From positions 1-22,654 of IMG/VR virus record IMGVR_UViG_3300010368_004406: a DNA stretch of 22,654 nt; one strand, written 5' to 3'. Shown piece by piece: positions 1 to 16,766 of this stretch. The DNA is from a virus. Below the pieces are notes generated by a model, which did not search any database, was not told where the DNA came from, and was given only the letters and a program-made list of their open reading frames with translations. The first letter of the stretch is position 1; each line of letters begins with the position of its first letter. The translations under genes were made by a program, and so were the position numbers.

Positions 1-2061
1 ATGAGCCTTATGACTGGCTTCGCCACCGGATTTCAGGATCGCCGAGACAGCCAACTCCGGCGTCGCGGCGAACTCGCGCAAGCTTTTGGCCAGTTCCGCC
101 AACAGAACCCGAACGCGACCTACCAAGAGTACCAAGACTACGTCGACTCGCTGTCTGGCGGGGACAATTACCTGCGCGGTGGTCTGCCTTCGCAGCAAGT
201 CCTGCAAAGCATGGCCGAGCGCAACGAAACCAGACAAAACGAGGAGCGCGTTCGTCAGCAGATGGTCGACGACGCTGCGCGGTTTGACTTCGACACTCAG
301 TTTGAAACAAATGCAGATCGTCATATTGCCAACGCCGACACCGACGACCCAGACACCCTGTATTCGTCGTTTAGTGAGCGTTTCCCAAACATTGACCTGT
401 CTCAGTATGGCGGCAGCAGCCGGTTCACCGCGCGCAACATCTCAAGGGTTCGCAGTCGGCAGGTGGAAGAATACATGGACCGCGCCGTTGGTCTCATCAC
501 GGACACCAATGGCCAGATCACATCCCAGACCCTCGAACAAGAATACGGCGTCCCCCGCAACATTTCCGAACCCCTTCTTCGGGCCGCCCAACTCCGCGCC
601 AACGAAGCGCGCGCCGAGCGGGAGCGTGGCCGGGCTGCGACCGAGAACGTCCAAAACACGGCGCTGGCGTCGACACTCTGGACGCAAATTCGGGAAGCCC
701 GAGCCGACGGTCTGGTTCAGATGCACATTCAGAATGGCCGCATCGACGATGCCGTCGAAATGATGGTCCAAGACCTCGCGCCCTTCGCAAATGCGTGGGA
801 AACCGTTCGCGGCGTTCCATTGGACAGCCCTCAAGGCCGCGCAATTCTGTCAGGTGATTTGACCAATCGTGCGCGTGCCGGTCAAACCGTCCAAACATAT
901 GAGCATGGCGCTGCGCGCGAAGCCGCCATCGCAGACAACACGCCACAACTGCTCGAAGAACTCACCCGAGCATCTGTCTCAGCCGCCCCAGAAGGTGGAG
1001 ACGAGCGCGAGGCCATCGCGCGCATTGTCGCCGGGACGTACCAGTACGATGAGGGCATCGGCCAAGCAGTCAACGACACCATTGACCGTCTCGACGGCGC
1101 TGGCTTCATTCGCCGTGGCGACCGCCAAGGCCTCACCCAAGCTGTACTCAACGACCCAACGTTTCTGGCTGCCGTGGCTGGCCGCGAACTCTCGACCATT
1201 GCTGGCATGCGCGCGAACGCGATGGCCCTTCAATCTGCACCGCTGCTGCCGATGGCTTCGCCAGATGTTGTGGCCGAGATTACGGAGGAGTCAGAAAACC
1301 TCCAAACCCAAGTCAACGCTCGCATCCTCGCGGCACAAAAGCACATGACCCCAGAGGGGACGCCAGACATCGCGCGCCAGACAGCCGAACTCAACCGTCT
1401 GGCAGACTATGTCGACCTTTGGGAACAGACCAATGTTACCCAGTGGGCGCGAAGGGCTACCGATCCAAGCTCAAATACCGTCGGCACGACATTCGATGGA
1501 GACGCGATCCGCTCTCAAATCAGCGGCGCAAACAGCGCGCTGCACCGCACCCGTGAGCGTATCCGTCAGGGGCGTGAAACCCTCAGTCATTATGTGCCAG
1601 ACAACACGGTTGCTCCAGCGGACGCTATCCCCTCGTTCGACCAAAGAAATGCGAACCTCGACGCCGCACGCGATCAGCGCATCCAACGCAACAGAGCTTT
1701 GGGCAGCCTTGGTTCGGCGGCGCGCGAGCATGTCCGCACCACTGAGCGCAGCCGCGACGAACGCATCAACAGAACCGCTCCTTGGGATGTTATGGAAATG
1801 CGGTCCACCAATATGGATCAAAGAGAGCGCGCCGACCTTATCAACGCCGCTCGCCGCGACGCCGAAGCTATGGTCCGAAGCCTCTTGGAAAATGAAACCA
1901 TGGGCCAAGAGGAAAAGCGGCGCGCAATCCAGCGCGTCACCACGGCCTTCGAAAGCGATCCCGTCGCCTTCGCCCGGACAGTCCAAAACGACCCTCAAGC
2001 ATATCAGCATGTCGGTGCCAGCGAACAGGCTCAACCCGGCCCTACCCCCACGCCGAAGTAA
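1..2061 (+). CDS. Helical putative virion/ejection protein, 686 aa
   Basis: I do not recognise a named family. The reading frame opens with ATG on base 1 of the window, so the true start could lie upstream. It ends with TAA at 2059-2061. The protein is rich in Gln, Arg, Glu and Ala, lacks a signal peptide or membrane segments, and is predicted by eye to be mostly alpha-helical, with a Gln/Arg/Asn-rich N-terminus (residues 10-90) and a short Pro/Thr tail. It lies 72 bases before the giant polyvalent gene, in the same direction. The arrangement of a mid-size helical protein followed by a very large multi-domain protein resembles the internal virion (ejection) protein block of podovirus-like phages, which is the basis for the call. 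Other possibilities are a tail or capsid-interior structural protein. Confidence is high that this is a gene and low for its role. Confidence 0.8.
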   Translation: MSLMTGFATGFQDRRDSQLRRRGELAQAFGQFRQQNPNATYQEYQDYVDSLSGGDNYLRGGLPSQQVLQSMAERNETRQNEERVRQQMVDDAARFDFDTQFETNADRHIANADTDDPDTLYSSFSERFPNIDLSQYGGSSRFTARNISRVRSRQVEEYMDRAVGLITDTNGQITSQTLEQEYGVPRNISEPLLRAAQLRANEARAERERGRAATENVQNTALASTLWTQIREARADGLVQMHIQNGRIDDAVEMMVQDLAPFANAWETVRGVPLDSPQGRAILSGDLTNRARAGQTVQTYEHGAAREAAIADNTPQLLEELTRASVSAAPEGGDEREAIARIVAGTYQYDEGIGQAVNDTIDRLDGAGFIRRGDRQGLTQAVLNDPTFLAAVAGRELSTIAGMRANAMALQSAPLLPMASPDVVAEITEESENLQTQVNARILAAQKHMTPEGTPDIARQTAELNRLADYVDLWEQTNVTQWARRATDPSSNTVGTTFDGDAIRSQISGANSALHRTRERIRQGRETLSHYVPDNTVAPADAIPSFDQRNANLDAARDQRIQRNRALGSLGSAAREHVRTTERSRDERINRTAPWDVMEMRSTNMDQRERADLINAARRDAEAMVRSLLENETMGQEEKRRAIQRVTTAFESDPVAFARTVQNDPQAYQHVGASEQAQPGPTPTPK

Positions 2062-2133: not shown

Positions 2134-5100
2134 ATGCCCCCTTTGACTATCGACTCGATGTACGCCGCTGCGCGCCAGACCAACCAGTCCGCTAATCGCG
2201 GCGCTCCGACCCCCGACAATTCGTACACCTCGGAAACCAACCCGCAGACGATCCTCCAAGACCCGCGCTTCCTGCGCGACTTGCGTGATTATTACGCCGA
2301 CCGTGGCGTCAGCTCTGCGTCCTACGAGACAGCCACTCAGCTCGTCGACCGCTTCTTTAGCGACGGTGTCTGGCGTCAGGCCAATACGGTTTCTGCCATC
2401 GGCTCGGCCATCGAAGCCAACACTGGCTCCGCCGATAGCCGCGCCCGCATGTCCCGCATCGAGCAGGCCTCCCGTGCCATGCCGATGTTCTGGCAAGAAG
2501 GCGGTCGGGGGTGGCGCGGTGTCGGCGATACCGTCGGCGCGATCCTCTCTGATCCAACCAATCTCGTTGGCGGCCTTGCCGCTGGTGGCGCTGCGCGTGT
2601 CGGAACCCGTTCTGCCATTGCCGCTGGCCGCTCTGTTGCTGGCCTGCGCGGCGCTGCTCGTGGTATCGGCGCAGCCGCGCTCACAGAAGGCGCAATCGGC
2701 GGCGCACAAGAAGCAATCGTCGACGCCTCCCTTCAAACCCGCGACATGGGCCTTGGCCTGCAAGACGGCTTCGACCGTGGCCGCTTGGCTACCTCCGCTG
2801 GGGTCGGCGCTCTCATGGGCGGCGCAATCGGCGGCGCAATCGGCGTGCCCGGCGCTCTGTCTGGCGCGAGCCAAGGCATGCGCGATGTGGCAACCGCAGC
2901 CCGCCACCAAATTCCAGCCGAAGACTTCGGACGCACGACCAGCCGCCAGTTCGATGAGCTTCAAGGCGCCGAATACGTTCCGCCACCAGCACCAGAAGTC
3001 GTGGAGGAGGTGGAGCCTGCGCCAGCACCAGAACTCTCCCCCGGCCTTGCCAATCTCGACACCGAACTAGCCACGCTTCGCAGCATGCACGAGGCAGAAA
3101 ATGCCGAACTGCGCTCTCGTGCAGCGGACGGCGCAGACACGTCTGAGCAAGAGCAAAATCTCACGATTTACAGCCGCCTCGCTCAAATCGGCAAACGCTT
3201 GGTTGCCGCCCAGACAGAGATCGACGCCCTTTACGCGACCAATGACGCGGCCTCGATCCGAACAGCCGACGCTCGCTCCGAAGCCCTCAACCGCGACCTC
3301 GCCAAGTTCTATGTCGCCATCCAAAACCCGGAACTTTCGACCGTCACCGAACTCCAGCGCCTCATGGAGCTGTATACTCCAGAGGCCGAGACAGCCGCAC
3401 CAGCAGCCGCCGCACCAGCGGCGACCCCAGCAACTCCACCCGCCGCCCCTGCCGCACCACCAGCCGAGCCAATTGCGCCAGCGGCACCTGCCGCTCCAGC
3501 GGCTCCCGCCGCACCTGTCCGCACATCGCCAGCCGCGCGCCAACTGGCCACCGATGCTGGCCTCGACCTCAACGAAATCGCGTCCTCCCGCGAAGACGGT
3601 TTCGTCACCGTGGAAGATGTGCGCCGCGCCGCCGCGAACCAAAACGAACCCGAACCAGTCATCGGCGTCGATGAGCCAGAGCTTCCCCCTGAAGTCGTTG
3701 CTGCCGACGCTGAAGCAGAGGTTGCTCCTGCCCCAGCCAAGACACGTCGCGCCCGCGCTGCCGCAGAGGAAATTGCTGCCCCGGCCACGCCAGAAGTCGT
3801 TTACGACAGCGACCGCTTCGCTCGCCTGCTGGCCAATGCCGAAGACGACCTCGAAGCCACGACAGCCAACACCGAGCTGGAAGAAATCCTTGATGAGATC
3901 GGCGACGACAACCACCTGTCTGACACCGAGCTGGCAGAGATTGTCGAGCTTATCGGTGCCAACAACCGCTGGCGCACCAATCACCTCGATCTTGGTGGGA
4001 TGGTCCGCTTTGCTGTGGAGAATGGCGAGCCTGCGCTCAACTCAGCCAGTGCTGGCCGCTCTCTCCAAGAAGCCATCGCCAGCCTCACCGATGAGCAGCG
4101 CAAGGTCTACGCAGACTTCCTGCGCGCCGAAATCGCAAACAACCCAGACATGCCTCAGCTTGATGCTGCCCGGAACGCCATCGACCGCCTTCAAGACGGC
4201 GGCGAAAGCGGCATCGAAGCCGACCTCTTGCCCGGACGCGAGGGCCGTCAGTCTGGCCGCCTTGTGCGCGATCCTGCCAACGCCAGTTTGTGGGTGACTG
4301 CCGGTCGCTCCAAGACAACTGGCCGCATCCAAAGCTTCCTGCGCCGTGGCCGTTCGATTGGCGGAGAAAATCCAGACTACACCATCACGGAAGGCGTGCC
4401 TTCGACCGCCGCCACCCTCAATGAAGAAGCTGCCCGCGCCGAAATGGCGCTCAACAAGGGCCTTCGCCATATGCCGTTTTCGGCAACGGCGCGCACAAAA
4501 GTCGTGGGCGTTCGTGGCGGGCAAGTCCGCAGGGGCACAATCGTCATTGCCGACGGCACTTCGGACAAGAACTACCTGTCCATGGAAGACCTGCGCAATG
4601 CGCGGGGCGAAGGGCCAGCCACGGCAGCCGAGCCTACTGCCGCCATCCCCGCTGGCATCACTGGCGCATACGGTGTGCGCACCAATGCCCTCAAGAAAAT
4701 CGTCCGCGACTTCATGGGTGATCCTGCTGGCGCGCTCGAAGCCCTCAAAACAATCAACCGTGGCCGCCCAGCGCCCCGCGCACGCCGCTCTGGTGGCCGT
4801 GAGGCGCAGGCAGCCAAGCGCAAGGCAATCGCACTAGCAAATGGCGTGGTCGAGCCTGACGCAGACCTGTTGGACGCTCAAGCCGCCGTCAATCCACCCG
4901 AGGGCATGCTCCTGCTTATCCGCCGCAGGACTGGCGACCGCGTCATTCGCCTCCAAGGCAAGCACCAAAAGGAAAAGGGCGTCAACTTCGCTGGCCTTGC
5001 CGGTGACGCCATGCCCGATCCCAACGATTGGGAAATTGCCTATGTACCAGACACGACCCGCGCCAAGGGAAACGAGGCTCTGGGTCTGCTTTGGAACAAG

Positions 5101-8100
5101 ACAAAGGCCGACGAGGCCAGCGCGACCGAGTACGACTACACGATCCTCACCGACGAAGGCGCGGAGTTGCAGGGCAAGTTTGTCCAAGAACCCATCGACT
5201 TCGACACCGAAGCCGGACGCTCCCGTACCACAGCCCCACTGACCGAACACGAGGTCGCCATCCTCAATTTTGTTGCGTCTATTTCAAGTCCGGGCATGCG
5301 GCGAGGGCGGTTGGCCGAGGGCGATAACATCAGTCTCAGAGCGCTCGTTTACTTGACCGATGTCTTTGAGACCTCGTCTTGGGCCGCCATCGCCGGACGC
5401 AAAGACCCCATCTCTGGTTCCGACATGGCCAACGTGTCGCTCTTTTTGAACGAACTCGTCGACAAGTATGTCGGCGGCGGCTGGAAAAAGGGCAACATTG
5501 AACGCGCCGCATCCGTTGACGCGCTGACAAAAACCATCGGCGACTACACGCCAGAAGAAATCGCCGAGGCGAAATTCTTCCTTGAGCATCGCCTTGTTGG
5601 TGATGGCGACGGCATGCTGCCAGACTTCAAAGCAACTCTCAGCACCAACAGTCTGGAAAGGTCTGCCGCTGGCAAGCAGCACATCAATCTCGGCACTCGT
5701 GGCGAGCAAAAGGGAGACGGCAACTTCACGCCGCGCCTCCAAATCCTGTATCACGAGATTGGCCATTGGGCGTATGCGAACGTCCTCAGCGCACAAGACA
5801 AAGCAACTTTCTGGCGCGCTATGTCTGGCCACTTGGTCAACGAGCGTGGTCGCCAGCCGGGTGGACCTTCATTCCGAGACGGCATCCCAGCGCCCGAAAG
5901 CCTGAAAGCCTCCGATCCAAATCCTATCGCGGGCCGCTACCCGGATGGGAACTACGGCAACACAGAGCTTTCCCCCGGCGAGCTGTGGGCCGACCAGTTC
6001 TCGGCGTGGGTTGTCCAAAACCTTGAGAAGTCGCTCGTCCGCGATCTGCCATACTGGGAGCGCATGGGCCATGTTGTGAAAGAAATCTTCCAGCGTTTCA
6101 CTGGCAGGAAGAAAGCTTTCTATGACCCGGCACTGGTGCCGCTGTTCCAGCGCGTCATGCCTGACGAATACGTCTCCAAGACAGGAAAGCTTCGCGTCGA
6201 GGGTCTGCCAAAGGGCAAAGCCACCACCGTCGTCACACCCAAGAAACCAAAGGCTGATCCGAACGGTGCGCCAGATGCCGCGCCGACGGCAGATCAAGTC
6301 ATTGCCGAGCCGCTCACGCCAGTTGGTATCGTCATGCACCGCCGCCTTGTCGAACTCGACATGACGCAAAACGAAATCCATGCCGCCATCTCCTCTGGCA
6401 GCCCGGACGCCATCATCAATGCCTTCGAAAACTACCGCACAAACCTGCTCTCGCTGTTCACATACGGCAAGAAAGCCCCTGCCCTGAAAGCCGTTAGTCG
6501 CCGTCGCTGGTATGCGAAACAGCGCATCGACGCCATTGACGAAATCATCAAGGGAGCGCCGGTCGAAGGGCGGTCCTCGACCTACACCCCCAAAGAACTC
6601 TCCGATGTCTTCAATGCTGGCGACAGCGTCGACGATGTCGGCGAGCCAGCTCTGGTGAATTGGGATGATTACGAGCGCATGAGTGTGTCTGGCGACCCTC
6701 AAGAGATCGCCGACAACCTGATCGACTACTACTATTACGGCTACAAGAACTTCACCCCGTCCAACGGTGTGCCGAAGGTCATCAAGTCCATCGAGCAGAC
6801 GGGCGGATACCAGTTCATCGACACCCTGCGCAAAGACCTGACCGGAACCTTCGTTTCCCAAGAAGGCGGCCTCCCTCTGGCCCCGACAAACCGCGTCCCT
6901 GACTTTCTGCCAGAAGACGTCTATGTCGTCGAACTCGCCAAAGCCCGCAAGGTCATCAAGCGCAATCGTATGCGTGATGCCCGCGTCGACATGGCAGCCG
7001 AAGATGCCGCTGCGGCAACAACCAAGAAGCCTCGCAGCAAACGCCGCCAGAAAGCAGCCGACGCCAGTATCGAGCGCAAAAACCCTACTCCGAAATCAAG
7101 ACAAGACCTTCGCACGCGCCCCCACAAGGACGTGCTGGAGTTCTACAAGGCCAACAAAGAGACGCCGGAAGGCGACGATGCAGCCTTCATCTTGATGGAG
7201 AAGCGTCGCGCCCAGACAGTCGAGATCACGGTCGCAAAAAATCCCGAGCGCGACGCAGCAATGCTCAAATTCAACACTCGTGAGCTGTCACTCTTGTTCT
7301 CCGAGGCTCTGGCCAAGAACAAGAAGGCCGACATCGACATCTATGGCCATGAAATCCAGCGCCGCCAGACAAAGCGCACGTTGAAGCCCAAGAAAACCTC
7401 TCAGGCCTCGTTGTCGCCCTCGCGTGTGCATCGCAACATCAAAGACGAGATCGCTGATCGCGCCGGAACACCAGCCGATGACGGCATCCCGCGCAAGGCG
7501 CGGCCCGCTGTCCGCGAGCTTCTGTCTTTCATCACGCACCGCGACCCCGAGGTTCAATACACGGCGCGCATGACCCTCTACCGCATGCTCAACCTGCTCG
7601 GCAAAACCTCAAACCGCGTTGTCGACAACATCGAAGTGATGACGACCGACCAAGTCATTGCCCGCATGATTACTGGCAGCGACATCTCTGTGATGGCGGG
7701 CCTCGACGCTGGCCAATCGTCTGGCATTGCCGTCGACTTCCGCTCGCCAGCCTTCAAAAAGCTCCGGGCTGACCAGCGACGCATCGCAATTGGTCTGACG
7801 AAGGGCACATCTTCGCCCGAAGAAGTCATGCACGAGGTGGCTCACAGCCTCGTCCGCTCGCGCCTGATCCCCGGTGCCGAAGGCGCCTCGATCACGAGTG
7901 CTTTCCGTGGTGCATCGGACAAGATCAAGGAGCGCGTGATGAACGATTACGCCTCCAAGTACAACGACCTGTCTCCATCGGCCCGTGAAGCAGCGGTCGC
8001 CGAGGAATGGTTCTCTGAGAGCCTCGTCGAATACCTGTCTGAGCGGATCACCCGTGAAGATTACGCCGCAAAATATGGTGCAGGACTTCGTGGCGAGGAA

Positions 8101-11100
8101 CGTGGGAAGCTCATGGCCGCCCTCGACCGCGCCATTGAATACGTCTCGTATATCTTGAACGGCATGGTCGGGCGCGACGACATCAAACAGGTGTTCCGTC
8201 GGATCACCTTCTATGGCGATATGTTCGAGGCTCCAGACAGCGGCGCACTTCGTCGCCCGAGCCAGTATTCCTATGCTTCGTCCGAAGCTGCCGGTGCTGC
8301 CGACGAAATCCTGCGCATGTCGCCCAAGGCTCGCCGGGAATTGATGCTGGAATACATCGACAACGGCTACGGTCTTGGCGAAGACGGCGAAATTCTCACC
8401 TTCTATCATGGCACCCCGAACGGCAAAGCCGCCTCCGCCGATGACTACTTCTTGGAGCCAAGCATGCGTGGCGATTATGGTCGGGGCATCTATGTCACGA
8501 GCAGCCCTCGCGTGGCCGACGAAGTCTATGGTCGCAACCCCACCGTTGGCGCAATGATCGCCAAATTCACCAAAGACAACCCAACCGCCGCTCAATCCAC
8601 CCACGATGAGTTCGCTTATTGGGCCTCAATGCTGGGCAATTCCCGGTCAGAGCTGCGCGCTGCGCGCGTCGAATACACAGAGCTTCTGATGGACATCCAG
8701 AAGTCCGAAGACGCAGGCGACGAGGTGAACGCATTTATTTTGCGCGAGGAACTGAACGAAGATCGTCTGGAACTCGAAGAACTGATGATCGCCGAGCGCG
8801 AAGATGCCGCTCATCTGGCGGCCATGGGATATGAAGACGTTCCTGATGTCTTGCCTCTGGTCATTCGCCTTCAGAACCCGGTTGATTTCACCCCCGCTGC
8901 CAAGCACACCCTCGGCGGCGACCTTGTCGCGGGCCTCACCGAGCGTCTTGCTGACAGTCTCGGCGAAGACGCGTCCGAGTTTGCGCGGAAGGTTTCCACC
9001 AAGCTCCACAATATCGCCGACACTTCACCAAGTGGCGTAACGTACCTGAACGGCGAAGACCTTTACCGGAGCTTGGTCGACTTGACCAAGCGTGGACCCG
9101 ACAACGCGACCATCTCAAGGGTCCGCGAAGACGCAGCCAAAGACCTGATTACCGAAGCCCTTCAAGACATGGGGCACGATGGCCTCATCACCACGCATTA
9201 CAATAATGTTTCGGACCCCGACATTGCGCCATTCGGCCTCAAGCGGGAATTTCACGAGACGGTTGTTCTCTTTGACTCAGCGCAAGCCAAGCACCTACAG
9301 GCGACCGACTTCGACAAGGCAGACCCGATCATCCGGCACAACGCCCGCGATGAAATCCCCAAGGGGGTCACGGGCGGGATTGTCGCTGCGCTCATGCACA
9401 GCGAGAGCAAAAACCTGACCATGGCCGACCTGCCTATGGGGCCAATCGGAGAGGAACTCGTCGCCAAAAACGTGACGAGTGACTATGTCGACATGCTGGC
9501 CACCATTGCCCGGCGTCGTGAGCCTTCGAACACTGAGATCGAGAAGGCAAACAAGCTGGCTCCGTTCGGTTTCTTGCAGGAAACATCTACCCGGATGAAG
9601 CGTATGGGCTTCAACTGGGCTGCCGACTGGTACAAGACAACATTTGTCGAGCGCCAGAACACGTTTGCGCGCAAATTCTACCCGCTCAATAATGCTCTGC
9701 GCGCCCTCCCCGATGCGCGCGGTCACATTGGCCGCTGGTTCGATGGGGCTACCGCCAACCTGCGGAAGCAGCCCGAAAGCTATCGTCGCATCGAGGGTGC
9801 GCTTCGCTTCGGTGATGGCTCCCGCCAAGAGGCGGCCCTGTCTACGCAAGAACGCGAGATTTACCGCTCGTTCCGCCAAGCCTTCAAGCGTGAGCGCGAC
9901 GAGCTGATCTCTGCTGGCGTGATGGTCGGTGGGCGAGACAACTACTACCCACAGGTCTGGAACCAAGAGGCTATCCGGCGTGACCGGGAAGGCTTCCTTT
10001 CCAACATGGCCGACTATTATCAGGCCGAGCGCCTCAAGGCAGGGGAAGACCCAGCTCCAGAAGTCGACGCACAGGACTTCGCGCAGACCATGATGGAGCG
10101 CTTGTCTGGCGACAACTCCGACGGCGTCTGGGTTGGCGAACATCAGCCACAGGCTACCGGCCTGCGAGCCGATCACATCGACTTCTCTCGTGTGATCGAA
10201 CTCGAAAAGCACCCCGAGATGATGAAGCGGCTTGAGCCATTCCTCGTGAATGACCTCGAACTGATGACCATCAAGTATTTCGACGGGACATCTCGCCGCC
10301 TGTCCAACGTCAAAAAGATGGGCGTGAACAATCACGCCTTCTACGACTACATGAAGGTCGCATCGGGCGGCAGCGAGGCTATCGCAACCCTCCTGTCTCA
10401 CCCGAAGGTGTTCTCCCGCGACATCACGTCATTCGACGGCGTGCGCTATGGGCATCACGAACTCACGCGCGACATGCGCTTGCCCTTCATCGGAAACGAA
10501 GTCGGGGCCAAGGAATTTGCAGACCAACTTCTAGCGGAGTTCAAAGAGCAGGGCACCAATGGCCCGGCGCACGCACGCCGTCGCCTTATGGAAGCCATCG
10601 GGGAAGTCGGCACCAGCACCGATTACGAACGCCGCGTCGAGGCCATTGTCGGCGGCCTCCAAGACTTCGGTGGTGAGCCGAAATCCTTGACCTCAGACAA
10701 GCCGCACTTCGACTTCGCCGAAGACGCCCTCCGTCTGGCCATGAAGCACCCGATTGGCGAGAGCCAAAAGACCCTTCGCCGGGCGTCCGGGGCGTTCCGT
10801 ACAATGAACAATGTTTCGTTGCTGGGCTTCACTGTCTTGTCGTCGCTCGGCGACGTGGCGCTGCCGATTATTCGGTCAGGCTCCTTCTCCTCGTGGACGA
10901 AGGCGATGACCAAGTTTGCGGGCGACAAAGAGTACCGCCAGATGATCGTCAATGTCGGCGTGGCCATGGAGAATATCGTCCATGAGCGCATGGTCGGCAT
11001 GTACGGGGCGACCGATGGCAAGCTCTCCACCGCCTTCTTCAACATGACTGGCCTCACGCCTTGGACGGACGTTCAGCGTCAGCTCGCTGGCGCAACAGGC

Positions 11101-12042
11101 CTCGAAGCCTTCCGCACCATGCAGCGTCGCGCCTCCAAGAGCTATCGCCCCGGCGTTGAAATCGGCCAACAAAGCACCGACTACAAAACCTCGGCGCGCT
11201 TCCTCAAGCGCTATGGTCTTGGCGACTTCTTGCCCGACGGCCCTCGCGCGAATGAGTCACTCGAAACGCAGAAGCTTCTCCAAGACGATGCGGGCCTCGG
11301 GATGGCGATTATCCAGTTTTCTGACGAGGCTATCTTCCAGCCGAACCCGAATGACATTCCAATGTGGGCGCAAACCCCTATTGGCGCGATGATCTTCCAG
11401 TTCAAGTCGTTCCCTCTGATGATGGGCCGCCTGTCTGGCTATGTCGTGGAGGAGTTCATGGCCGGAAATCCGAAGCCTGCCCTCTATCTGGCGACGTTTG
11501 GGGTTGGCTCTGGCGCAATCGCCTACGCATCCAAGGACATTATCCAAGGACGTGGCGGCGATGAGCGCCGTGAACACACCATCAGCCAGCCAAATGTCCT
11601 CGACGCCATCGGCTACGATGCCGAGACACACGGCGACGTGGGCAACTACATGAACTGGTATTTCGCTGGCCTGTTGCAGATGGGCGGAATGGGCCTGCTG
11701 GGCGACGCCATGTTTGGCATCATCGACCAAGCCGACAACGGCGCATACGGCAAGACACGCATCACATCGCTTCTCTTTGGCCCGTCTGTCGGCCTCGGCT
11801 ACTCGGCCATCGAAGTTGGTGCGGGTGTCGCTGACGCAGCCTTCGGCGACGGGTCGTCCAATGCCCAAGCCCGGTCCTCGACGCGCGAGCTTGCGACACG
11901 CATCCCGATTGCTGGCGGTGTCCGGTCATTGCGCGAACAGGCCGTCGACGTTGTCGCGGGACGATCATCTACCAGTCAGCGTGAGACAGGCATCGGATCG
12001 AGTGAGCTTGGTGAAAGCGAACTCGGGGAAAGTGAGCTGTAA
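2134..12042 (+). CDS. Giant polyvalent virion protein with PSBD-like, two metalloprotease-like and ADP-ribosyltransferase-like domains, 3302 aa
   Basis: ATG at 2134 has GGAG eight bases upstream. Domains in order: Gly/Ala-rich, membrane-active-looking stretches (about residues 130-250); helical/coiled region (300-420); Ala/Pro linker (about 420-462); E3-binding/PSBD-like motif (464-503, SPAAR...GLDL...GFVTVEDV); first zinc-protease motif HEIGH (1207-1211) with acidic ELWAD at about 1283; basic linker (about 1620-1660); second motif HEVAH (1900-1904) with EEWFSE at 1957-1962; ADP-ribosyltransferase-like domain with FYHGT (2090-2094), GIYVT (2118-2122), DGLI (2349-2352) and FDSAQAK (2380-2386), giving an H-Y-Q triad; and a hydrophobic C-terminal part (about 2890-3200, including QFKSFP). 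It ends in SELGE repeats. Large proteins mixing proteases, ARTs and linker domains are known as phage polyvalent proteins, thought to be packaged and ejected into the host. Host targets are inferred, not shown. No transglycosylase motif was seen. The frame is intact for 9.9 kb. Confidence 0.9.
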   Translation: MPPLTIDSMYAAARQTNQSANRGAPTPDNSYTSETNPQTILQDPRFLRDLRDYYADRGVSSASYETATQLVDRFFSDGVWRQANTVSAIGSAIEANTGSADSRARMSRIEQASRAMPMFWQEGGRGWRGVGDTVGAILSDPTNLVGGLAAGGAARVGTRSAIAAGRSVAGLRGAARGIGAAALTEGAIGGAQEAIVDASLQTRDMGLGLQDGFDRGRLATSAGVGALMGGAIGGAIGVPGALSGASQGMRDVATAARHQIPAEDFGRTTSRQFDELQGAEYVPPPAPEVVEEVEPAPAPELSPGLANLDTELATLRSMHEAENAELRSRAADGADTSEQEQNLTIYSRLAQIGKRLVAAQTEIDALYATNDAASIRTADARSEALNRDLAKFYVAIQNPELSTVTELQRLMELYTPEAETAAPAAAAPAATPATPPAAPAAPPAEPIAPAAPAAPAAPAAPVRTSPAARQLATDAGLDLNEIASSREDGFVTVEDVRRAAANQNEPEPVIGVDEPELPPEVVAADAEAEVAPAPAKTRRARAAAEEIAAPATPEVVYDSDRFARLLANAEDDLEATTANTELEEILDEIGDDNHLSDTELAEIVELIGANNRWRTNHLDLGGMVRFAVENGEPALNSASAGRSLQEAIASLTDEQRKVYADFLRAEIANNPDMPQLDAARNAIDRLQDGGESGIEADLLPGREGRQSGRLVRDPANASLWVTAGRSKTTGRIQSFLRRGRSIGGENPDYTITEGVPSTAATLNEEAARAEMALNKGLRHMPFSATARTKVVGVRGGQVRRGTIVIADGTSDKNYLSMEDLRNARGEGPATAAEPTAAIPAGITGAYGVRTNALKKIVRDFMGDPAGALEALKTINRGRPAPRARRSGGREAQAAKRKAIALANGVVEPDADLLDAQAAVNPPEGMLLLIRRRTGDRVIRLQGKHQKEKGVNFAGLAGDAMPDPNDWEIAYVPDTTRAKGNEALGLLWNKTKADEASATEYDYTILTDEGAELQGKFVQEPIDFDTEAGRSRTTAPLTEHEVAILNFVASISSPGMRRGRLAEGDNISLRALVYLTDVFETSSWAAIAGRKDPISGSDMANVSLFLNELVDKYVGGGWKKGNIERAASVDALTKTIGDYTPEEIAEAKFFLEHRLVGDGDGMLPDFKATLSTNSLERSAAGKQHINLGTRGEQKGDGNFTPRLQILYHEIGHWAYANVLSAQDKATFWRAMSGHLVNERGRQPGGPSFRDGIPAPESLKASDPNPIAGRYPDGNYGNTELSPGELWADQFSAWVVQNLEKSLVRDLPYWERMGHVVKEIFQRFTGRKKAFYDPALVPLFQRVMPDEYVSKTGKLRVEGLPKGKATTVVTPKKPKADPNGAPDAAPTADQVIAEPLTPVGIVMHRRLVELDMTQNEIHAAISSGSPDAIINAFENYRTNLLSLFTYGKKAPALKAVSRRRWYAKQRIDAIDEIIKGAPVEGRSSTYTPKELSDVFNAGDSVDDVGEPALVNWDDYERMSVSGDPQEIADNLIDYYYYGYKNFTPSNGVPKVIKSIEQTGGYQFIDTLRKDLTGTFVSQEGGLPLAPTNRVPDFLPEDVYVVELAKARKVIKRNRMRDARVDMAAEDAAAATTKKPRSKRRQKAADASIERKNPTPKSRQDLRTRPHKDVLEFYKANKETPEGDDAAFILMEKRRAQTVEITVAKNPERDAAMLKFNTRELSLLFSEALAKNKKADIDIYGHEIQRRQTKRTLKPKKTSQASLSPSRVHRNIKDEIADRAGTPADDGIPRKARPAVRELLSFITHRDPEVQYTARMTLYRMLNLLGKTSNRVVDNIEVMTTDQVIARMITGSDISVMAGLDAGQSSGIAVDFRSPAFKKLRADQRRIAIGLTKGTSSPEEVMHEVAHSLVRSRLIPGAEGASITSAFRGASDKIKERVMNDYASKYNDLSPSAREAAVAEEWFSESLVEYLSERITREDYAAKYGAGLRGEERGKLMAALDRAIEYVSYILNGMVGRDDIKQVFRRITFYGDMFEAPDSGALRRPSQYSYASSEAAGAADEILRMSPKARRELMLEYIDNGYGLGEDGEILTFYHGTPNGKAASADDYFLEPSMRGDYGRGIYVTSSPRVADEVYGRNPTVGAMIAKFTKDNPTAAQSTHDEFAYWASMLGNSRSELRAARVEYTELLMDIQKSEDAGDEVNAFILREELNEDRLELEELMIAEREDAAHLAAMGYEDVPDVLPLVIRLQNPVDFTPAAKHTLGGDLVAGLTERLADSLGEDASEFARKVSTKLHNIADTSPSGVTYLNGEDLYRSLVDLTKRGPDNATISRVREDAAKDLITEALQDMGHDGLITTHYNNVSDPDIAPFGLKREFHETVVLFDSAQAKHLQATDFDKADPIIRHNARDEIPKGVTGGIVAALMHSESKNLTMADLPMGPIGEELVAKNVTSDYVDMLATIARRREPSNTEIEKANKLAPFGFLQETSTRMKRMGFNWAADWYKTTFVERQNTFARKFYPLNNALRALPDARGHIGRWFDGATANLRKQPESYRRIEGALRFGDGSRQEAALSTQEREIYRSFRQAFKRERDELISAGVMVGGRDNYYPQVWNQEAIRRDREGFLSNMADYYQAERLKAGEDPAPEVDAQDFAQTMMERLSGDNSDGVWVGEHQPQATGLRADHIDFSRVIELEKHPEMMKRLEPFLVNDLELMTIKYFDGTSRRLSNVKKMGVNNHAFYDYMKVASGGSEAIATLLSHPKVFSRDITSFDGVRYGHHELTRDMRLPFIGNEVGAKEFADQLLAEFKEQGTNGPAHARRRLMEAIGEVGTSTDYERRVEAIVGGLQDFGGEPKSLTSDKPHFDFAEDALRLAMKHPIGESQKTLRRASGAFRTMNNVSLLGFTVLSSLGDVALPIIRSGSFSSWTKAMTKFAGDKEYRQMIVNVGVAMENIVHERMVGMYGATDGKLSTAFFNMTGLTPWTDVQRQLAGATGLEAFRTMQRRASKSYRPGVEIGQQSTDYKTSARFLKRYGLGDFLPDGPRANESLETQKLLQDDAGLGMAIIQFSDEAIFQPNPNDIPMWAQTPIGAMIFQFKSFPLMMGRLSGYVVEEFMAGNPKPALYLATFGVGSGAIAYASKDIIQGRGGDERREHTISQPNVLDAIGYDAETHGDVGNYMNWYFAGLLQMGGMGLLGDAMFGIIDQADNGAYGKTRITSLLFGPSVGLGYSAIEVGAGVADAAFGDGSSNAQARSSTRELATRIPIAGGVRSLREQAVDVVAGRSSTSQRETGIGSSELGESELGESEL

Positions 12043-12044
12043 CC

Positions 12045-12239
12045 ATGGCCCTACCAACCAACTGGCGGGAGCTTTATCGCTCCCTTCCCCGCCCGACATT
12101 GAGTTGGGTCGGGGTGTTTTGTTTGCCGGTGGCAGTCTTCCTGCCGTCCGTTGACGCCTCAAAACTTGGGGTGCTTACGGCCTTCTTGGTCCTGCTTTAT
12201 GGCATACGCGAAGCTGGCAAAGCGGCGGGCAACGAATGA
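12045..12239 (+). CDS. Small two-TM membrane protein, holin candidate, 64 aa
   Basis: The ATG lies two bases after the stop of the giant gene. The 64-aa product has two hydrophobic segments, roughly residues 18-36 (LSWVGVFCLPVAVF) and 41-56 (LGVLTAFLVLLYGI), and a short charged C-terminus with Arg, Lys and Glu. Holins are small inner-membrane proteins that form the lesion releasing the endolysin to the peptidoglycan. This protein fits by size, topology and position: it overlaps the i-spanin start by four bases (ATGA) and begins a block of i-spanin, o-spanin and endolysin. Holin families share little sequence, so the call rests on context and topology. The ribosome binding site is weak, so translation may be coupled to the upstream gene. 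It could also be another small membrane protein of the lysis block. Confidence 0.75.
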   Translation: MALPTNWRELYRSLPRPTLSWVGVFCLPVAVFLPSVDASKLGVLTAFLVLLYGIREAGKAAGNE

Positions 12240-12589
12240 TCTGGAAAATCATCATAGGCGCTCTTGTCTCGGTGATCCTTTTTGGTGGGGGTCGGCTGGT
12301 CTGGGTTGAATGGCAATTCGACAAGACAAAAACCCAACTCGTGTTTGCCCTCGACGGCTTGGCTCTCGCCGAGAAGAACGTCGAAATCGAAACCCGCGCT
12401 CGCATCAGCGCCGAAGCGTCGGCGGCACGCGATGCTGCCCGCGTTGCGGGAACGCTGCAAGATGAAAGAGAAATCAGAAATGTCCCGGTCACTTATGAGT
12501 GTGCTTCTTCCCCTGCCATTAGCCTTGCTCTTGACCAGTTGCGGCACCGTCAGACAACTCGTCGCGCCAGCGCAGACGATACCCCCTAG
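12236..12589 (+). CDS. Rz-like i-spanin, 117 aa
   Basis: The product has one N-terminal transmembrane segment (about residues 2-22, IWKIIIGALVSVILF), followed by a charged, Ala/Glu/Arg-rich helical region (about 25-85) suited to a periplasmic coiled coil. This is the layout of Rz-type inner-membrane spanins, which bind an outer-membrane lipoprotein partner and disrupt the outer membrane at the end of lysis. The start overlaps the holin candidate by ATGA. A lipoprotein with a clear lipobox is encoded in another frame across its last 110 bases and beyond, the classical nested Rz/Rz1 arrangement, which strongly supports the identification. The C-terminal roughly 20 residues are compositionally different, as expected where the sequence must also encode the partner's signal peptide. 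Confidence 0.8.
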   Translation: MIWKIIIGALVSVILFGGGRLVWVEWQFDKTKTQLVFALDGLALAEKNVEIETRARISAEASAARDAARVAGTLQDEREIRNVPVTYECASSPAISLALDQLRHRQTTRRASADDTP

Positions 12590-12737
12590 CCTTCTGACCT
12601 GCTCGGAGTTTCCAGATATTCCAGACACGGAATTATCGGATACCGAAATCGCGCTTGTCTTGCGGTGGGGCTACACGTCTTGGGAAAACTGCTCAGACAA
12701 GCTCGCCGAAGTGCGCCAGCTCATAGCGGAGGAATAG
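12480..12737 (+). CDS. Rz1-like o-spanin lipoprotein, nested with the i-spanin gene, 85 aa
   Basis: The frame encodes a 21-residue signal peptide ending in the lipobox LLTSC, with Cys21 as the predicted lipidated residue. The mature part has a Pro-containing stretch and two further Cys residues near positions 40 and 70, as in many Rz1/LysC proteins that form disulfides in the periplasm. The start could also be ATG at 12462, adding six residues (MKEKSE). I prefer 12480 because a purine-rich AAAGAGA precedes it and the signal peptide has normal length. The first 110 bases overlap the i-spanin gene in a different frame. The stop at 12735-12737 lies two bases before the endolysin ATG. Role: outer-membrane subunit of the spanin complex that fuses or disrupts the outer membrane, implying a Gram-negative host. 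Confidence 0.82.
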   Translation: MSRSLMSVLLPLPLALLLTSCGTVRQLVAPAQTIPPSLLTCSEFPDIPDTELSDTEIALVLRWGYTSWENCSDKLAEVRQLIAEE

Positions 12738-12739
12738 CC

Positions 12740-13210
12740 ATGACGTTTAAGTTCTCGAAGCGGTCCCTCGGACATCTCGAAGGTGTCGATCCAAAACTTC
12801 AACGCGTGATGGCCCGCGCACTGGCCATCTCCAAGGTCGACTTCGGCATCATCGACGGCCTGCGCACCCAATCAGAACAGCGCGCTCTCGTCGCCTCGGG
12901 TGCCAGTCAGACGATGTCATCGAAGCACCTCACTGGCCATGCGGTCGACGTGATGGCTTATGTGGGATCAAGGGGGAGTTGGGAAGCGCCGCTCTATCAC
13001 AAGATCGCAGACGCCGTGCGCGATGCCAGTATCGAACTGGACGTATCTGTCCGGTGGGGCGGGGCGTGGCAAGTCCCCGATGTTGGCCAGTGGGCGCAAG
13101 ACATGGAGGCGGCGAGCCGTCGCTACATCGCCATTCGTGTCGCGGCAGGGCGTATGCCATTCGTTGACTCAGGGCACTTTGAGCTGTCTGGTGACGATTA
13201 CGTCGGGTGA
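12740..13210 (+). CDS. M15-family peptidase endolysin (L-Ala-D-Glu / D,D-peptidase type), 156 aa
   Basis: The start at 12740 is preceded by GGAGGA seven to twelve bases upstream. The product carries the M15 zinc-peptidase signature SKHLTGHAVD (residues 61-70) and the C-terminal GHFEL (145-149). By comparison with phage T5 endolysin, H63, D70 and H146 should bind zinc and D143 should be the catalytic acid: the spacings H-x6-D and D-x2-H match that enzyme. The length is normal for single-domain M15 endolysins (about 130-160 aa). There is no signal peptide, so release depends on a holin, for which the 64-aa protein upstream is the candidate. It cleaves peptide cross-bridges or stems in peptidoglycan; the exact bond cannot be read from sequence. 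It is the last rightward gene of the late block and faces a convergent gene. Confidence 0.93.
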   Translation: MTFKFSKRSLGHLEGVDPKLQRVMARALAISKVDFGIIDGLRTQSEQRALVASGASQTMSSKHLTGHAVDVMAYVGSRGSWEAPLYHKIADAVRDASIELDVSVRWGGAWQVPDVGQWAQDMEAASRRYIAIRVAAGRMPFVDSGHFELSGDDYVG

Positions 13211-13608: not shown

Positions 13609-14469
13609 CTACTCCTTGGGGTCGACGATGAAGCGTTGGTATGAGCCACAGGCTTCATGGGCATCGATCTTGAACTTCGTACACTCCCAATCTCCATTTG
13701 GCTTGGGGCGTGAGAAGGCGCAGGTAGGGCAAGAGGGAACAACCTCTTGAAGCTCCGGCTCCCAGCACGCCGAGCGCTTAAAGCAACCCTTGCAACGCCA
13801 GTCCAACGGGTCAGGTGATACCCGTTTCTTTGCACTACCGGCAAGAACATTTTTTATCCGCTCGCAGATGAACGCGTATTCAAGCTCATCGAAGTCAACA
13901 ATTTCCGCGTGGTATCTTGAATTGTTTTTGCAGATCGCCAGCATGAGAGCCTGCCGCATGCCCGACATACCAAGCATCATCTGCATCTGAGCATAGTACG
14001 AAGGATGCGAGCGCTTGATGCCGACCTTCATAAATTTTTCGAAGGATGCCAAGTTCATCGACTTGATTTCCAGCACGCGAACTTCCTCATCGGCGAACTC
14101 GATGTGCCCATCCATATGACACACCACATGGCCACCCCACTCGGTGTAGGCGAATTGTTTTCCGGTGACGCCATCAACCTCCCACATGCTGATGCCAGCC
14201 ATCTTTTTGAGGTCGGCCACAACCATGTCTTCCAGCGCATGGCCAAGCTTGAAGATACGCGCCAGCCCCGGCTCGGGCGGATCATTGGGGAAGCCGCGCA
14301 TCGAGAGCGTCAGGTTCGCGTCACAGGTATTCCCGATTGAACTGGCCCCGATATAGCGGCGCGGCTTTTCTTTTTGGCTGGCTCGGTAGCCCTCGTTGAT
14401 TGCATCTACAACATCGGAAGCCGTCTTGATTGGTATGGCTGTCTTGGTTGGGTTAGTTGTTTTTGTCAT
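13609..14469 (-). CDS. Cas4/RecB-like PD-(D/E)XK exonuclease with predicted Fe-S cluster, 286 aa
   Basis: The nuclease core shows the GHALE motif (residues 76-80), D120 in the MDGH block, E134-x-K136 in LEIKS, and a Q161-containing YYAQMQ motif, the order found in Cas4, AddB and RecB-family nucleases. Cys49, placed before the core, plus C226-x2-C229-x5-C235 at the C-terminus matches the four-Cys 4Fe-4S arrangement of Cas4/AddB. A second Cys set follows (C247-x2-C250, C263, C274), possibly a zinc ribbon. I chose ATG at 14469 rather than 14493 because GGAG stands nine bases before it. Likely role: resects double-stranded DNA ends to give single strands for the Sak4/SSB-like pair encoded upstream. 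A strong terminator separates it from those genes, so it may be expressed at a lower level by read-through. Confidence 0.87.
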   Translation of the reverse strand: MTKTTNPTKTAIPIKTASDVVDAINEGYRASQKEKPRRYIGASSIGNTCDANLTLSMRGFPNDPPEPGLARIFKLGHALEDMVVADLKKMAGISMWEVDGVTGKQFAYTEWGGHVVCHMDGHIEFADEEVRVLEIKSMNLASFEKFMKVGIKRSHPSYYAQMQMMLGMSGMRQALMLAICKNNSRYHAEIVDFDELEYAFICERIKNVLAGSAKKRVSPDPLDWRCKGCFKRSACWEPELQEVVPSCPTCAFSRPKPNGDWECTKFKIDAHEACGSYQRFIVDPKE

Positions 14470-14506
14470 TTGTAGTAACTCCATTAACCGCAATCAAAAC
14501 CCGATC

Positions 14507-14542
14507 AAAAAAAAGAGGCGCGCAGTTTGTCTTGCGCGCCTC
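14507..14542 (-). terminator. Strong intrinsic terminator (leftward)
   Basis: Read leftward, GAGGCGCGCA and TGCGCGCCTC form a perfect 10-bp GC-rich stem with an 8-base loop, followed immediately by eight U (A-tract at 14507-14514). It lies after the SSB-like gene and before the Cas4-like gene, so it ends or attenuates the recombination operon. No convincing promoter with room for a leader lies between it and the nuclease gene. Confidence 0.9.
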
Positions 14543-14588
14543 AGTCGTCGGCAGGTGGGAGGGTTGGTGCCGCCCACTTATTGTCGGA

Positions 14589-15122
14589 CTAGAAAGGGAT
14601 TTCGTCGTCCATGTCTTTGTGCGCACCGCCGCCAGATCGTTGCGCACTACCGGCGCTCGACAGGCTCGACAGATCAGCCGGTGTCTCGGTGGGCGTGGTG
14701 AACTTGTCGAAGTCAGCGACAGGGAAGAAGCGCTTGGCCTCAACGGACTGGCGCTTCTCGCCCTTGTTGTTCAGGTACGGCTTCCCGTATCCGATAATCA
14801 CGCCGACAGTCAGGTTGTTCAGGGAAGTAATGTCCCCCGGACGGTCTGGTGACGGGTGCGCGGCACTGATCAGAAAGCTCTTGAGTTGCGAGAGCGCAAT
14901 CTCTTGTGCCTTCGCCGATGTGTGATGGATATTGAACCCGACGCGCAGGTCGCCACCGCCCTGAGTATCCGTCAGCACTATGGTCAGGCGGCGGTTCGTT
15001 GTCTGGCCAACCTGTTCCACCTTGGCGTCGCCGACATTGACGATGTATTTGCCAGCACCGAGCATAGCGGTGCTGCCTTCGATGGTAGACAGATCGAGTG
15101 CGTCAAAACCATTCCAGCTCAT
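14589..15122 (-). CDS. DUF669/SSB-like single-strand DNA-binding protein, 177 aa
   Basis: The N-terminal about 115 residues look like the beta-rich DUF669 phage family (GKYIVNVGDAKVEQ, RRLTIVLTDT, LKSFLISA), which is often encoded beside recombination ATPases and nucleases. A Gly/Ser/Ala-rich disordered region follows, and the protein ends in DDEIPF, the acidic-hydrophobic tip of bacterial single-strand DNA-binding proteins (DDDIPF in E. coli SSB) that recruits partner enzymes. Its ATG overlaps the stop of the Sak4-like gene by one base (TAATG), with AAGGAT inside that gene as ribosome binding site. Likely role: coats phage single strands and recruits the Sak4-like annealing/recombinase protein. 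It is the last gene before the strong terminator. The DUF669 assignment is from memory of the family pattern. Confidence 0.8.
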   Translation of the reverse strand: MSWNGFDALDLSTIEGSTAMLGAGKYIVNVGDAKVEQVGQTTNRRLTIVLTDTQGGGDLRVGFNIHHTSAKAQEIALSQLKSFLISAAHPSPDRPGDITSLNNLTVGVIIGYGKPYLNNKGEKRQSVEAKRFFPVADFDKFTTPTETPADLSSLSSAGSAQRSGGGAHKDMDDEIPF

Positions 15123-15958
15123 TATTTGGTATCCTTCGTGTTAACAGTGACCGTTTCGCTTTTGGCTTCGGTCGGCTCTGAGGGGGCTGCTTTGTGCATG
15201 GCCTGATAGTCTTTCTCCGAGAGGCTCATGCGATGGAGAAGTTCGGTGACGTCAGACACAGGCTCTTGAGGCTTGAGGCGACCGCGTGGATCGCGGACCT
15301 TCCCATGCCAGCCTGAGACTTCATCGGTAATGACGAAGCGACGAACTCGCGCCACGCCCTTGTCGTCACGCTCGGTACTGCGCACGCCACACAGGACGTG
15401 ATCGAACAGAGCGGGGACTTGCTTGGAAACCTTGTTGCCCTTGACCAGAGGCCAGAAGTGGGTGGTTCCGTTGGCGTCGCTTTCTTCGCCAGCAAGACAC
15501 GTCACATAGACGTGCATCGGCAGATCGCGGACCCACTTGAGGGAGCCGATCATCAGGCGCGAATAGTCTTGCCAGATGGCGAAGCCGCCCTCCGGGTTCT
15601 CGCGCTCAAGGTGTTCGAGTAGGCGCTCGGACACTTCGGTCAGGCTGTCGATGGCGATCCAATTGTACCCGGCTTCGCGGAACTCTTTCGAGTGCAGCAT
15701 TTTCACGATGCCGCGAAAGGAATAGATGCCGCTCTCAGGATCGTGCTTCCCATCCCAAGACACGAACGGCAGGTAATCAATGTCGCAGTCTTCGAGGGAT
15801 TTCAGACCGCTCTCGCCAGAGATAATCAGACCCTTTCCGTAGCGCGCCTGATAGTAGCGTGTCTGGTACGTCTTGCCGAAGCCGTGGTGCGAGTAGAGCA
15901 GAACCTTTGTCGGCCCATTCTCCTGCAACTCAGACGTATTCATAGTGGCGAAGCTCAT
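15122..15958 (-). CDS. Sak4-type RecA-like ATPase (AAA_24), phage recombinase, 278 aa
   Basis: A Walker A-like loop, SHHGFGKT (residues 23-30), and a Walker B strand, WIAIDS (100-105, Asp104), frame a small RecA core, followed by a sensor-like strand (VYVTC, 150-154). This size and motif order is that of the Sak4/AAA_24 phage nucleotide-binding proteins, RecA-core proteins that promote annealing or strand exchange together with a phage SSB. The first residue of Walker A is Ser instead of the usual Gly. ATG at 15958 has AAGGA six bases upstream. The gene overlaps the SSB-like gene by one base, supporting a Sak4-SSB pair. The last roughly 30 residues are a charged, probably disordered tail (EPTEAKSETVTVNTKDTK). 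Confidence 0.85.
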   Translation of the reverse strand: MSFATMNTSELQENGPTKVLLYSHHGFGKTYQTRYYQARYGKGLIISGESGLKSLEDCDIDYLPFVSWDGKHDPESGIYSFRGIVKMLHSKEFREAGYNWIAIDSLTEVSERLLEHLERENPEGGFAIWQDYSRLMIGSLKWVRDLPMHVYVTCLAGEESDANGTTHFWPLVKGNKVSKQVPALFDHVLCGVRSTERDDKGVARVRRFVITDEVSGWHGKVRDPRGRLKPQEPVSDVTELLHRMSLSEKDYQAMHKAAPSEPTEAKSETVTVNTKDTK

Positions 15959-15994
15959 GGCGTGTCCTTTGGACTGAGAGTTGTGGGGGGAAGG

Positions 15995-16666
15995 CTAGAA
16001 GGGCATGTCGTCGTCAGACGACGCGGTCGTCGTGATTGGCGCAATTGGCGCAAGTGTCCCGATACCCACCACGCCGCTGGCATCCAAAGTCATGCCGGTC
16101 TTCCAAGCCGCTCCCGGCGCAAGCTCTGCCGAGAGGGATGGTGAGCTTTTTTTCTTGGTCAGGTAGGGGTCCAGAATTTCTTTGCCGCTAATTGACAGGG
16201 CTTCATAGGTACGATTGTCGACCGAGAAACGGGACGTCACAGCAGGTGGGCGGGAGACAAGGCCAGCCTCAAAAGCCCGCTTCAAGCCGTCCGAGTCCCA
16301 AATGTTCCGCACCGAAACCTTGGCCTTGATCGTGCCGGTAGGCGTCGAGAAGTATGTGACGCCTTCGTCCGGGTCCAAGGTCCGGTTGAACTCGTCCACT
16401 ATGGCGGCGCGATCACTTCTGAGCGCGGCAATCTGTTCATCAATCTCAACGAGGCGGCGCGTTGCCTCATCCATTGGAAAGCGCGTCTCGATTGTTCGGC
16501 CCACGCCACTCTCATCTACGCAATTAACCGAGACGAGAGGGGTGGGAGAGGTGGAAAAGATGGTGGCTGTGACGGCGATGATTTCTTCCAACTCCTTCAC
16601 ATAGGTAGGAACATCAGGCTTCTCGTCAGGCTCGTTTCCGAAGTCATCGAAGTTTGCGCTTTTCAT
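15995..16666 (-). CDS. Recombination-operon protein with SSB-like C-terminal tail, 223 aa
   Basis: The family is not firmly recognised. Residues about 70-95 form a helical segment (RRLVEIDEQIAALRSDRAAI), followed by a beta-rich part (about 100-170) and a Ser/Ala/Pro/Thr-rich linker. The protein ends in DDDMPF, another SSB-type acidic-hydrophobic tip. ATG at 16666 is chosen over the longer frame (open to 17044, which would run through the promoter region and into the divergent primase gene) because GGAGAG stands six bases before it. It is the first gene behind the predicted leftward promoter, 36 bases before the Sak4-like gene. It might be an SSB-fold protein, a Gam-like end-protecting protein or an accessory that uses the same partner-binding tip; the sequence alone does not decide. 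Confidence 0.8.
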   Translation of the reverse strand: MKSANFDDFGNEPDEKPDVPTYVKELEEIIAVTATIFSTSPTPLVSVNCVDESGVGRTIETRFPMDEATRRLVEIDEQIAALRSDRAAIVDEFNRTLDPDEGVTYFSTPTGTIKAKVSVRNIWDSDGLKRAFEAGLVSRPPAVTSRFSVDNRTYEALSISGKEILDPYLTKKKSSPSLSAELAPGAAWKTGMTLDASGVVGIGTLAPIAPITTTASSDDDMPF

Positions 16667-16717
16667 AGAAAACTCTCCGAGGGGCGATGCTACAGATGGC
16701 ATCTTGTGGACACCCAA

Positions 16718-16746
16718 CAAATAGGCTAGGTGTGACACCTTGGCAA
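16718..16746 (-). promoter_or_regulatory. Predicted leftward early promoter with palindromic operator in the spacer
   Basis: On the minus strand, TTGCCA (16741-16746) and TATTTG (16718-16723) are spaced by 17 bases, a fair sigma70-type arrangement, about 45 bases before the first gene of the recombination operon. A perfect inverted repeat, AGGTGT-G-ACACCT on the plus strand (16728-16740), fills most of the spacer, where a bound repressor would block RNA polymerase. The same region must also contain the rightward promoter of the primase gene, for which I see only a weak candidate (TTGTGG at 16704). Confidence 0.55.
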
Positions 16747-16766
16747 CCCCCACTGGAGAAAAAAGC

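Follow-up and report, generated by a model that had tools for sequence, protein, structure and literature searches.

The present analysis concerns an IMG/VR virus record whose 22,654 bases (referred to here, as a whole, as the window) encode a 3,302-aa protein. It suggests that this protein is quite probably the large ejection (pilot) protein with which a marine phage of the CRP-810 type delivers an ADP-ribosyltransferase (ART) together with one or two zincins, a gp16-like core being joined in it to a cargo region of some 2,400 residues. Judged from its sequence, the single chain appears to hold several biochemically unrelated domains: an E3-binding domain, one or two zincin-like domains, an ART and the gp16-like core. 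The features on which this reading rests are as follows.

1..2061, + strand: upstream gene, 686 aa, no cysteine; position and length as T7 gp15
2134..12042, + strand: whole polyvalent/ejection protein; 3,302 aa read from an ATG without internal stop, no cysteine
2134..2943, + strand: conserved N-terminal domain, residues 1-270, homologous to CRP-810 gp36
3385..3516, + strand: Ala/Pro-rich linker, residues 418-461
3517..3624, + strand: predicted E3-binding (peripheral subunit-binding) domain, residues 462-497; PF02817, E=1.4e-6
5386..6333, + strand: zincin-like domain 1, residues 1085-1400; conservation, model, weak PDB matches, Peptidase_M91
5752..5766, + strand: HEIGH of domain 1, residues 1207-1211; conserved alignment columns
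5980..5982, + strand: E1283, probable third zinc ligand of domain 1; conservation, model
7441..8313, + strand: zincin-like domain 2, residues ~1770-2060; conservation, with a helical model that has no sheet
7831..7845, + strand: HEVAH of domain 2, residues 1900-1904; conserved alignment columns
8005..8007, + strand: E1958, probable third ligand of domain 2; conservation, profile comparison
8380..9333, + strand: predicted ART domain of ART-PolyVal/HYD2 type with a long helical insert; PF18760, HYD triad, model
8407..8409, + strand: H2092 of the ART triad; conserved column
8491..8493, + strand: Y2120 of the ART triad; conserved column
9178..9180, + strand: D2349 of the ART triad (GHDG); conserved column, with a model strand next to it (2350-2360)
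9451..12003, + strand: C-terminal ejection-protein core, residues 2440-3290; phrog_684, phrog_342, hhalign to T7 gp16

The open reading frame is preceded by GGAG. It is uninterrupted, as a preliminary description of this DNA had claimed, and the motifs that it listed lie where it had placed them (HEIGH at 1207-1211, HEVAH at 1900-1904, FYHGT at 2090-2094, GIYVT at 2118-2122 and FDSAQ at 2380-2384). The linkers and membrane-active-looking ends that it mentioned were likewise recovered, in the form of the Ala/Pro linker and of hydrophobic stretches close to both termini; the most hydrophobic segments include residues 224-242, 2895-2913 and 3179-3228. Scans of IMG/VR yielded a homologue set of 65 non-redundant loci with a length of at least 1,500 aa, in which the complete homologues are single frames, mostly of 2,800-3,990 aa, with all motifs aligned. 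Thus, a long single chain is the norm for the family. By its sequence the protein is a typical member of the CRP-810 marine phage family (mSphere 2024, PMC11288001). In CRP-810 (OR671924), homology extends along the entire chain and all motifs are present, split over the annotated genes gp36, gp35 and gp34. The split between gp35 and gp34 arises because an exact 31-bp tandem duplication between them (L003:24775-24836) shifts the frame, and a close relative (L004) reads through the split point unsplit; the duplication is either a real mutation or an assembly artefact. Two scans of genome contigs were also run: the first gave no match, and the second matched only metagenome-assembled contigs of mixed taxa.

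The preliminary description interpreted the protein as an ejected effector, and this interpretation gains support from a gp16-family C-terminus, from matches to virion structural proteins and from a chain devoid of cysteine. Conservation along the protein is highest in residues 2440-3290. The C-terminus matches phrog_684 (virion structural protein, 2.7e-17) and positions 803-1210 of the 1235 in phrog_342, the T7 gp16 family (4.8e-16; as a control, T7 gp16 scores 1,354.7 bits against phrog_342), and hhalign aligned a second stretch locally with T7 gp16, at lower confidence. The C-terminus also resembles proteins of KPP25-type phages that carry a structural annotation, and a Pfam search with it, LPD38 included, gave no match. 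Gene order places a T7 gp15-sized protein first, then the frame at 2134-12042 and then lysis genes. The 686-aa upstream protein, which is likely, by position and length, to be the T7 gp15 counterpart, has weak similarity to CRP-810 gp37 (E=0.005) and gave no family match. Downstream, 12045-12737 encodes a small membrane protein (possible holin) and then overlapping frames that look like an inner and an outer spanin, with a lipoprotein-like signal in the frame at 12282-12737; an endolysin follows at 12671-13210 (phrog_465, 6.9e-54), and 13612-18689 carries a Cas4-like exonuclease, a Sak4-like annealing protein and a primase/polymerase with helicase in the same order as in CRP-810. A 2,050-aa protein of Aeromonas phage phiA008 (L230:5000-11152) has a matching C-terminus, one HELGH and no cysteine.

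Cysteine is absent from all 3,302 residues, and the family set (window plus 65 relatives) has 4 in 198,899 aa, as against about 1.07% in the other mechanical ORFs at the same loci. In CRP-810, the gp37-gp34 block contains 1 cysteine in 3,881 aa versus 56 in 9,083 for those other genes that were counted. Known ejected proteins used as controls gave the same picture, with none in the 3,500 residues of the N4 virion RNA polymerase (vRNAP), the 2,065 of T7 gp15/gp16 or the 1,309 of P22 gp7/gp20/gp16; N4 gp50-52 likewise lack cysteine, T7 gp14 has one, and P1 DarB, which is delivered by a phage with a contractile tail, contains 9 in 2,255. The signal is strong for long chains and not exclusive: the absence of cysteine is supportive rather than decisive, since cysteine is also missing from some virion proteins that are not ejected, among them the N4 capsid protein and the P22 scaffold. 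Unfolding in transit is a published model for T7 gp16 and N4 vRNAP, and the lack of cysteine may be linked to unfolding during such a passage. A literature search of limited coverage found no paper stating the cysteine content of ejection proteins, which may be known elsewhere.

The presence of an ADP-ribosyltransferase-like domain, also proposed in the preliminary description, is borne out by Pfam ART-PolyVal matches in 26 of 41 family members (E<=0.01; best 1.6e-10) and by a conserved H2092-Y2120-D2349 (HYD) triad, which is found in 55 of 65 rows of the family alignment. The protein itself scores 28.2 bits against ART-PolyVal (PF18760), below the curated cut-off of 31.2, a partial match that may reflect the long helical insert splitting the domain. 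The proposed set of ART motifs held for FYHGT, which contains H2092, and for GIYVT, which contains Y2120. FDSAQ, however, was rejected as the source of the third catalytic residue: the D2381 column holds D in 31 of 66 rows, as against 62 of 66 for D2349 of GHDG, which takes its place. In polyvalent ARTs (Tox-ART-HYD2), H lies in strand 1, Y in strand 2 and D in strand 5 (PMC5512222), and the predicted H-Y-D triad corresponds to this published set. The active site of the ART is thereby narrowed to three residues. A structure model covering domain 2 and the ART had as its best BFVD match a phage protein with a large polyvalent protein domain (3.7e-15); the alignments behind this model and that of domain 1 exclude the CRP-810 row.

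Both HExxH motifs are conserved columns in the family alignment, and two or more such motifs occurred in 0.12% of shuffled chains (chance expectation 0.047). Domain 1 is probably a zincin. Its model, which has a mean pLDDT of 69.9, contains strands forming a sheet, a helix with the HExxH and a helix with the Glu, although the sheet is of low confidence, and the two best PDB entries matched by the model are zincins, both weak (E 0.28 and 0.39); among the weak matches are the zincins PPEP-2, 1pwv and selecase. Structure prediction, proposed earlier as a check, thus gave a sheet-helix-helix unit, with a weak sheet and weak PDB matches. Peptidase_M91 was matched in 2 family members. In the clade without the site-1 HExxH, E1283 is replaced by K, R or Q; because the two are lost together, E1283 appears to be part of the same site as HEIGH.

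These motifs bear on the idea that the protein is a tail tape-measure or host-membrane protein whose HExxH and ART-like motifs arose by chance. Its long helical stretches, its hydrophobic ends and some weak BFVD matches to tape-measure proteins would suit such a role, but the motifs are aligned and conserved in a deep family, most members examined match ART-PolyVal, the C-terminus is gp16-like and CRP-810 carries the annotation internal virion protein; we regard this explanation as very improbable and already largely refuted.

Domain 2 is a possible zincin on sequence grounds. A Glu is kept at the E1958 column in every row that retains the site-2 HExxH, and a comparison of the domain 1 and domain 2 profiles aligned both motifs, weakly (probability 41.5%). 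The model, however, contains no zincin sheet: it is confident and all helical around the motif, and the model of domain 2 and the ART matched no PDB fold (all E-values >0.2). Sequence searches of the PDB with the domain profiles likewise gave no credible match. Despite the conserved HExxH and Glu, domain 2 is therefore graded below domain 1 because its model is helical at HEVAH, and of the two distinct proteases originally described, one stands as a probable zincin with HExxH and E1283, while the second, lacking a modelled sheet, is a possible one. One relative (L164) has an extra, domain 1-like HEVGHWAYF segment near domain 2, which suggests a duplicated zincin there.

Among the 59 rows in which both zincin sites could be scored, 27 have both, 23 retain site 1 alone, 9 retain site 2 alone and none has lost both. 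This pattern of loss is compatible with redundancy of the zincins. Fisher's test for reciprocal loss gave P=0.009 with kinship ignored; when seven random site-2 losses were placed on the tree, about 34% of trials gave zero overlap with the site-1-dead tips. Since P is about 0.34 once losses are placed on the tree, the reciprocal loss is only suggestive, and it was set aside as proof of redundancy. The decay of sites might also mean that the protein is mainly a structural ejection protein, with ART and zincin regions that are partly decayed remnants doing little in this phage. The C-terminus is indeed the part under the strongest conservation, and the ART triad and site 2 are lost together in the divergent loci L164, L175, L168, L113, L170, L056 and L144. 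Nevertheless, the protein studied here retains two full HExxH plus Glu sets and the HYD triad, the triad is kept in most rows, and at least one zincin site persists in every scorable row, which leaves this explanation improbable.

The N-terminal domain contains a Gly/Ala-rich hydrophobic stretch around residues 224-242, and its CRP-810 homologue, gp36, is annotated as internal virion protein D. The predicted E3-binding domain comes directly after the Ala/Pro linker and scores 28.9 bits against PF02817, above the Pfam cut-off of 23.7; residues 462-497 resemble 1w4i and other pyruvate dehydrogenase (PDH) E2 chains. The domain occurs in 5 of 51 family members and is above the cut-off in 3 other records, and one relative (L107) has two copies. 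In the protein studied here, two of the three arginines that we take to be contact residues seem to be replaced.

From these data we infer virion location, ejection, enzyme activity and targets, as well as the direction and time of any cleavage, and propose the following course of events. The protein is probably packaged in the head, and the chain would pass through the short tail into the host, at least partly unfolded, before or with the DNA. The gp16-type core would help to build the DNA conduit, and the ART, through H2092-Y2120-D2349, would modify a host protein in the early phase of infection. Cutting of the chain, which would part cargo from conduit, is the most likely task of one or both zincin-like domains; alternatively, they may cut a host protein. 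Self-cleavage of the chain, which the preliminary description had raised, is plausible; multiple metallopeptidase (MPTase) domains per chain and self-processing have already been proposed for polyvalent proteins, and P1 DdrB, which has an MPTase domain, is cut prior to packaging (PMC5512222). A serious competitor, to which we give somewhat less than even weight, is that the chain acts uncut, with the zincin-like domains serving as folding, packaging or docking modules or directed against host proteins. N4 vRNAP is packaged unprocessed despite a zincin-like HExxH domain, in a region required for encapsidation (PMC5512222, PMC12633501), and the HExxH is degenerate in many relatives that keep the flanking sequence (the 23 site-2-dead and 9 site-1-dead rows). 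Weighing against an uncut chain are the processing of DdrB and the fact that none of the 59 rows lacks both sites, the latter not significant when kinship is counted.

A broader proposition, which we hold to be evenly balanced, is that a near-zero cysteine content is the mark of proteins which pass through the podophage tail as unfolded threads, and that by this mark the whole CRP-810 giant, together with its enzymes, leaves the virion as a single chain. The gp16-type core of this family would then be a delivery vehicle of general use, and its cargo (zincins, ART, E3-binding domain) would be exchanged and would decay one module at a time. Should this signature prove valid more widely, ejected proteins could be picked out directly from metagenomic phage sequence, for which proteomics is not possible.

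The protein appears to belong to the phage-type polyvalent proteins, a known class whose zincins and ARTs were described in 2017 (Iyer et al., PMC5512222); because chains with several zincins and ART fusions are already published, it is not a new kind of protein. It shares with the class a long chain encoded in the virion region and zincin-like MPTase domains together with an H-Y-D ART, and differs in its terminal T7 gp16-type core, its E3-binding domain and its lack of cysteine. With T7 gp16 (internal virion protein D, phrog_342) it has in common the C-terminal homology, the place after a gp15-sized protein and the absence of cysteine, but it is 2.5 times as long and its N-terminal 2,400 residues carry other domains; the gp16 lytic transglycosylase found no match in Pfam or PHROGs across the whole 3,302-aa chain. 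N4 vRNAP (gp50) is likewise an ejected, cysteine-free chain, of about 3,500 aa, with a zincin-like HExxH domain, whereas the present protein carries an ART and has no Pfam or PHROG match to RNA polymerase. T4 Alt is alike in its working, as a virion-carried ART that is injected and modifies host proteins early, although it has an R-S-E active site and is not a polyvalent protein (PMC5512222), and membership is not claimed. Finally, what is annotated in CRP-810 as three proteins, gp36, gp35 and gp34, labelled hypothetical and internal virion proteins, is here a single frame. The CRP-810 family has a wide distribution in the sea, and up to now its largest gene has been filed mostly as hypothetical; an ejection core joined to an HYD-type ART and zincin cargo offers a testable account of what CRP-810-type phages deliver first.
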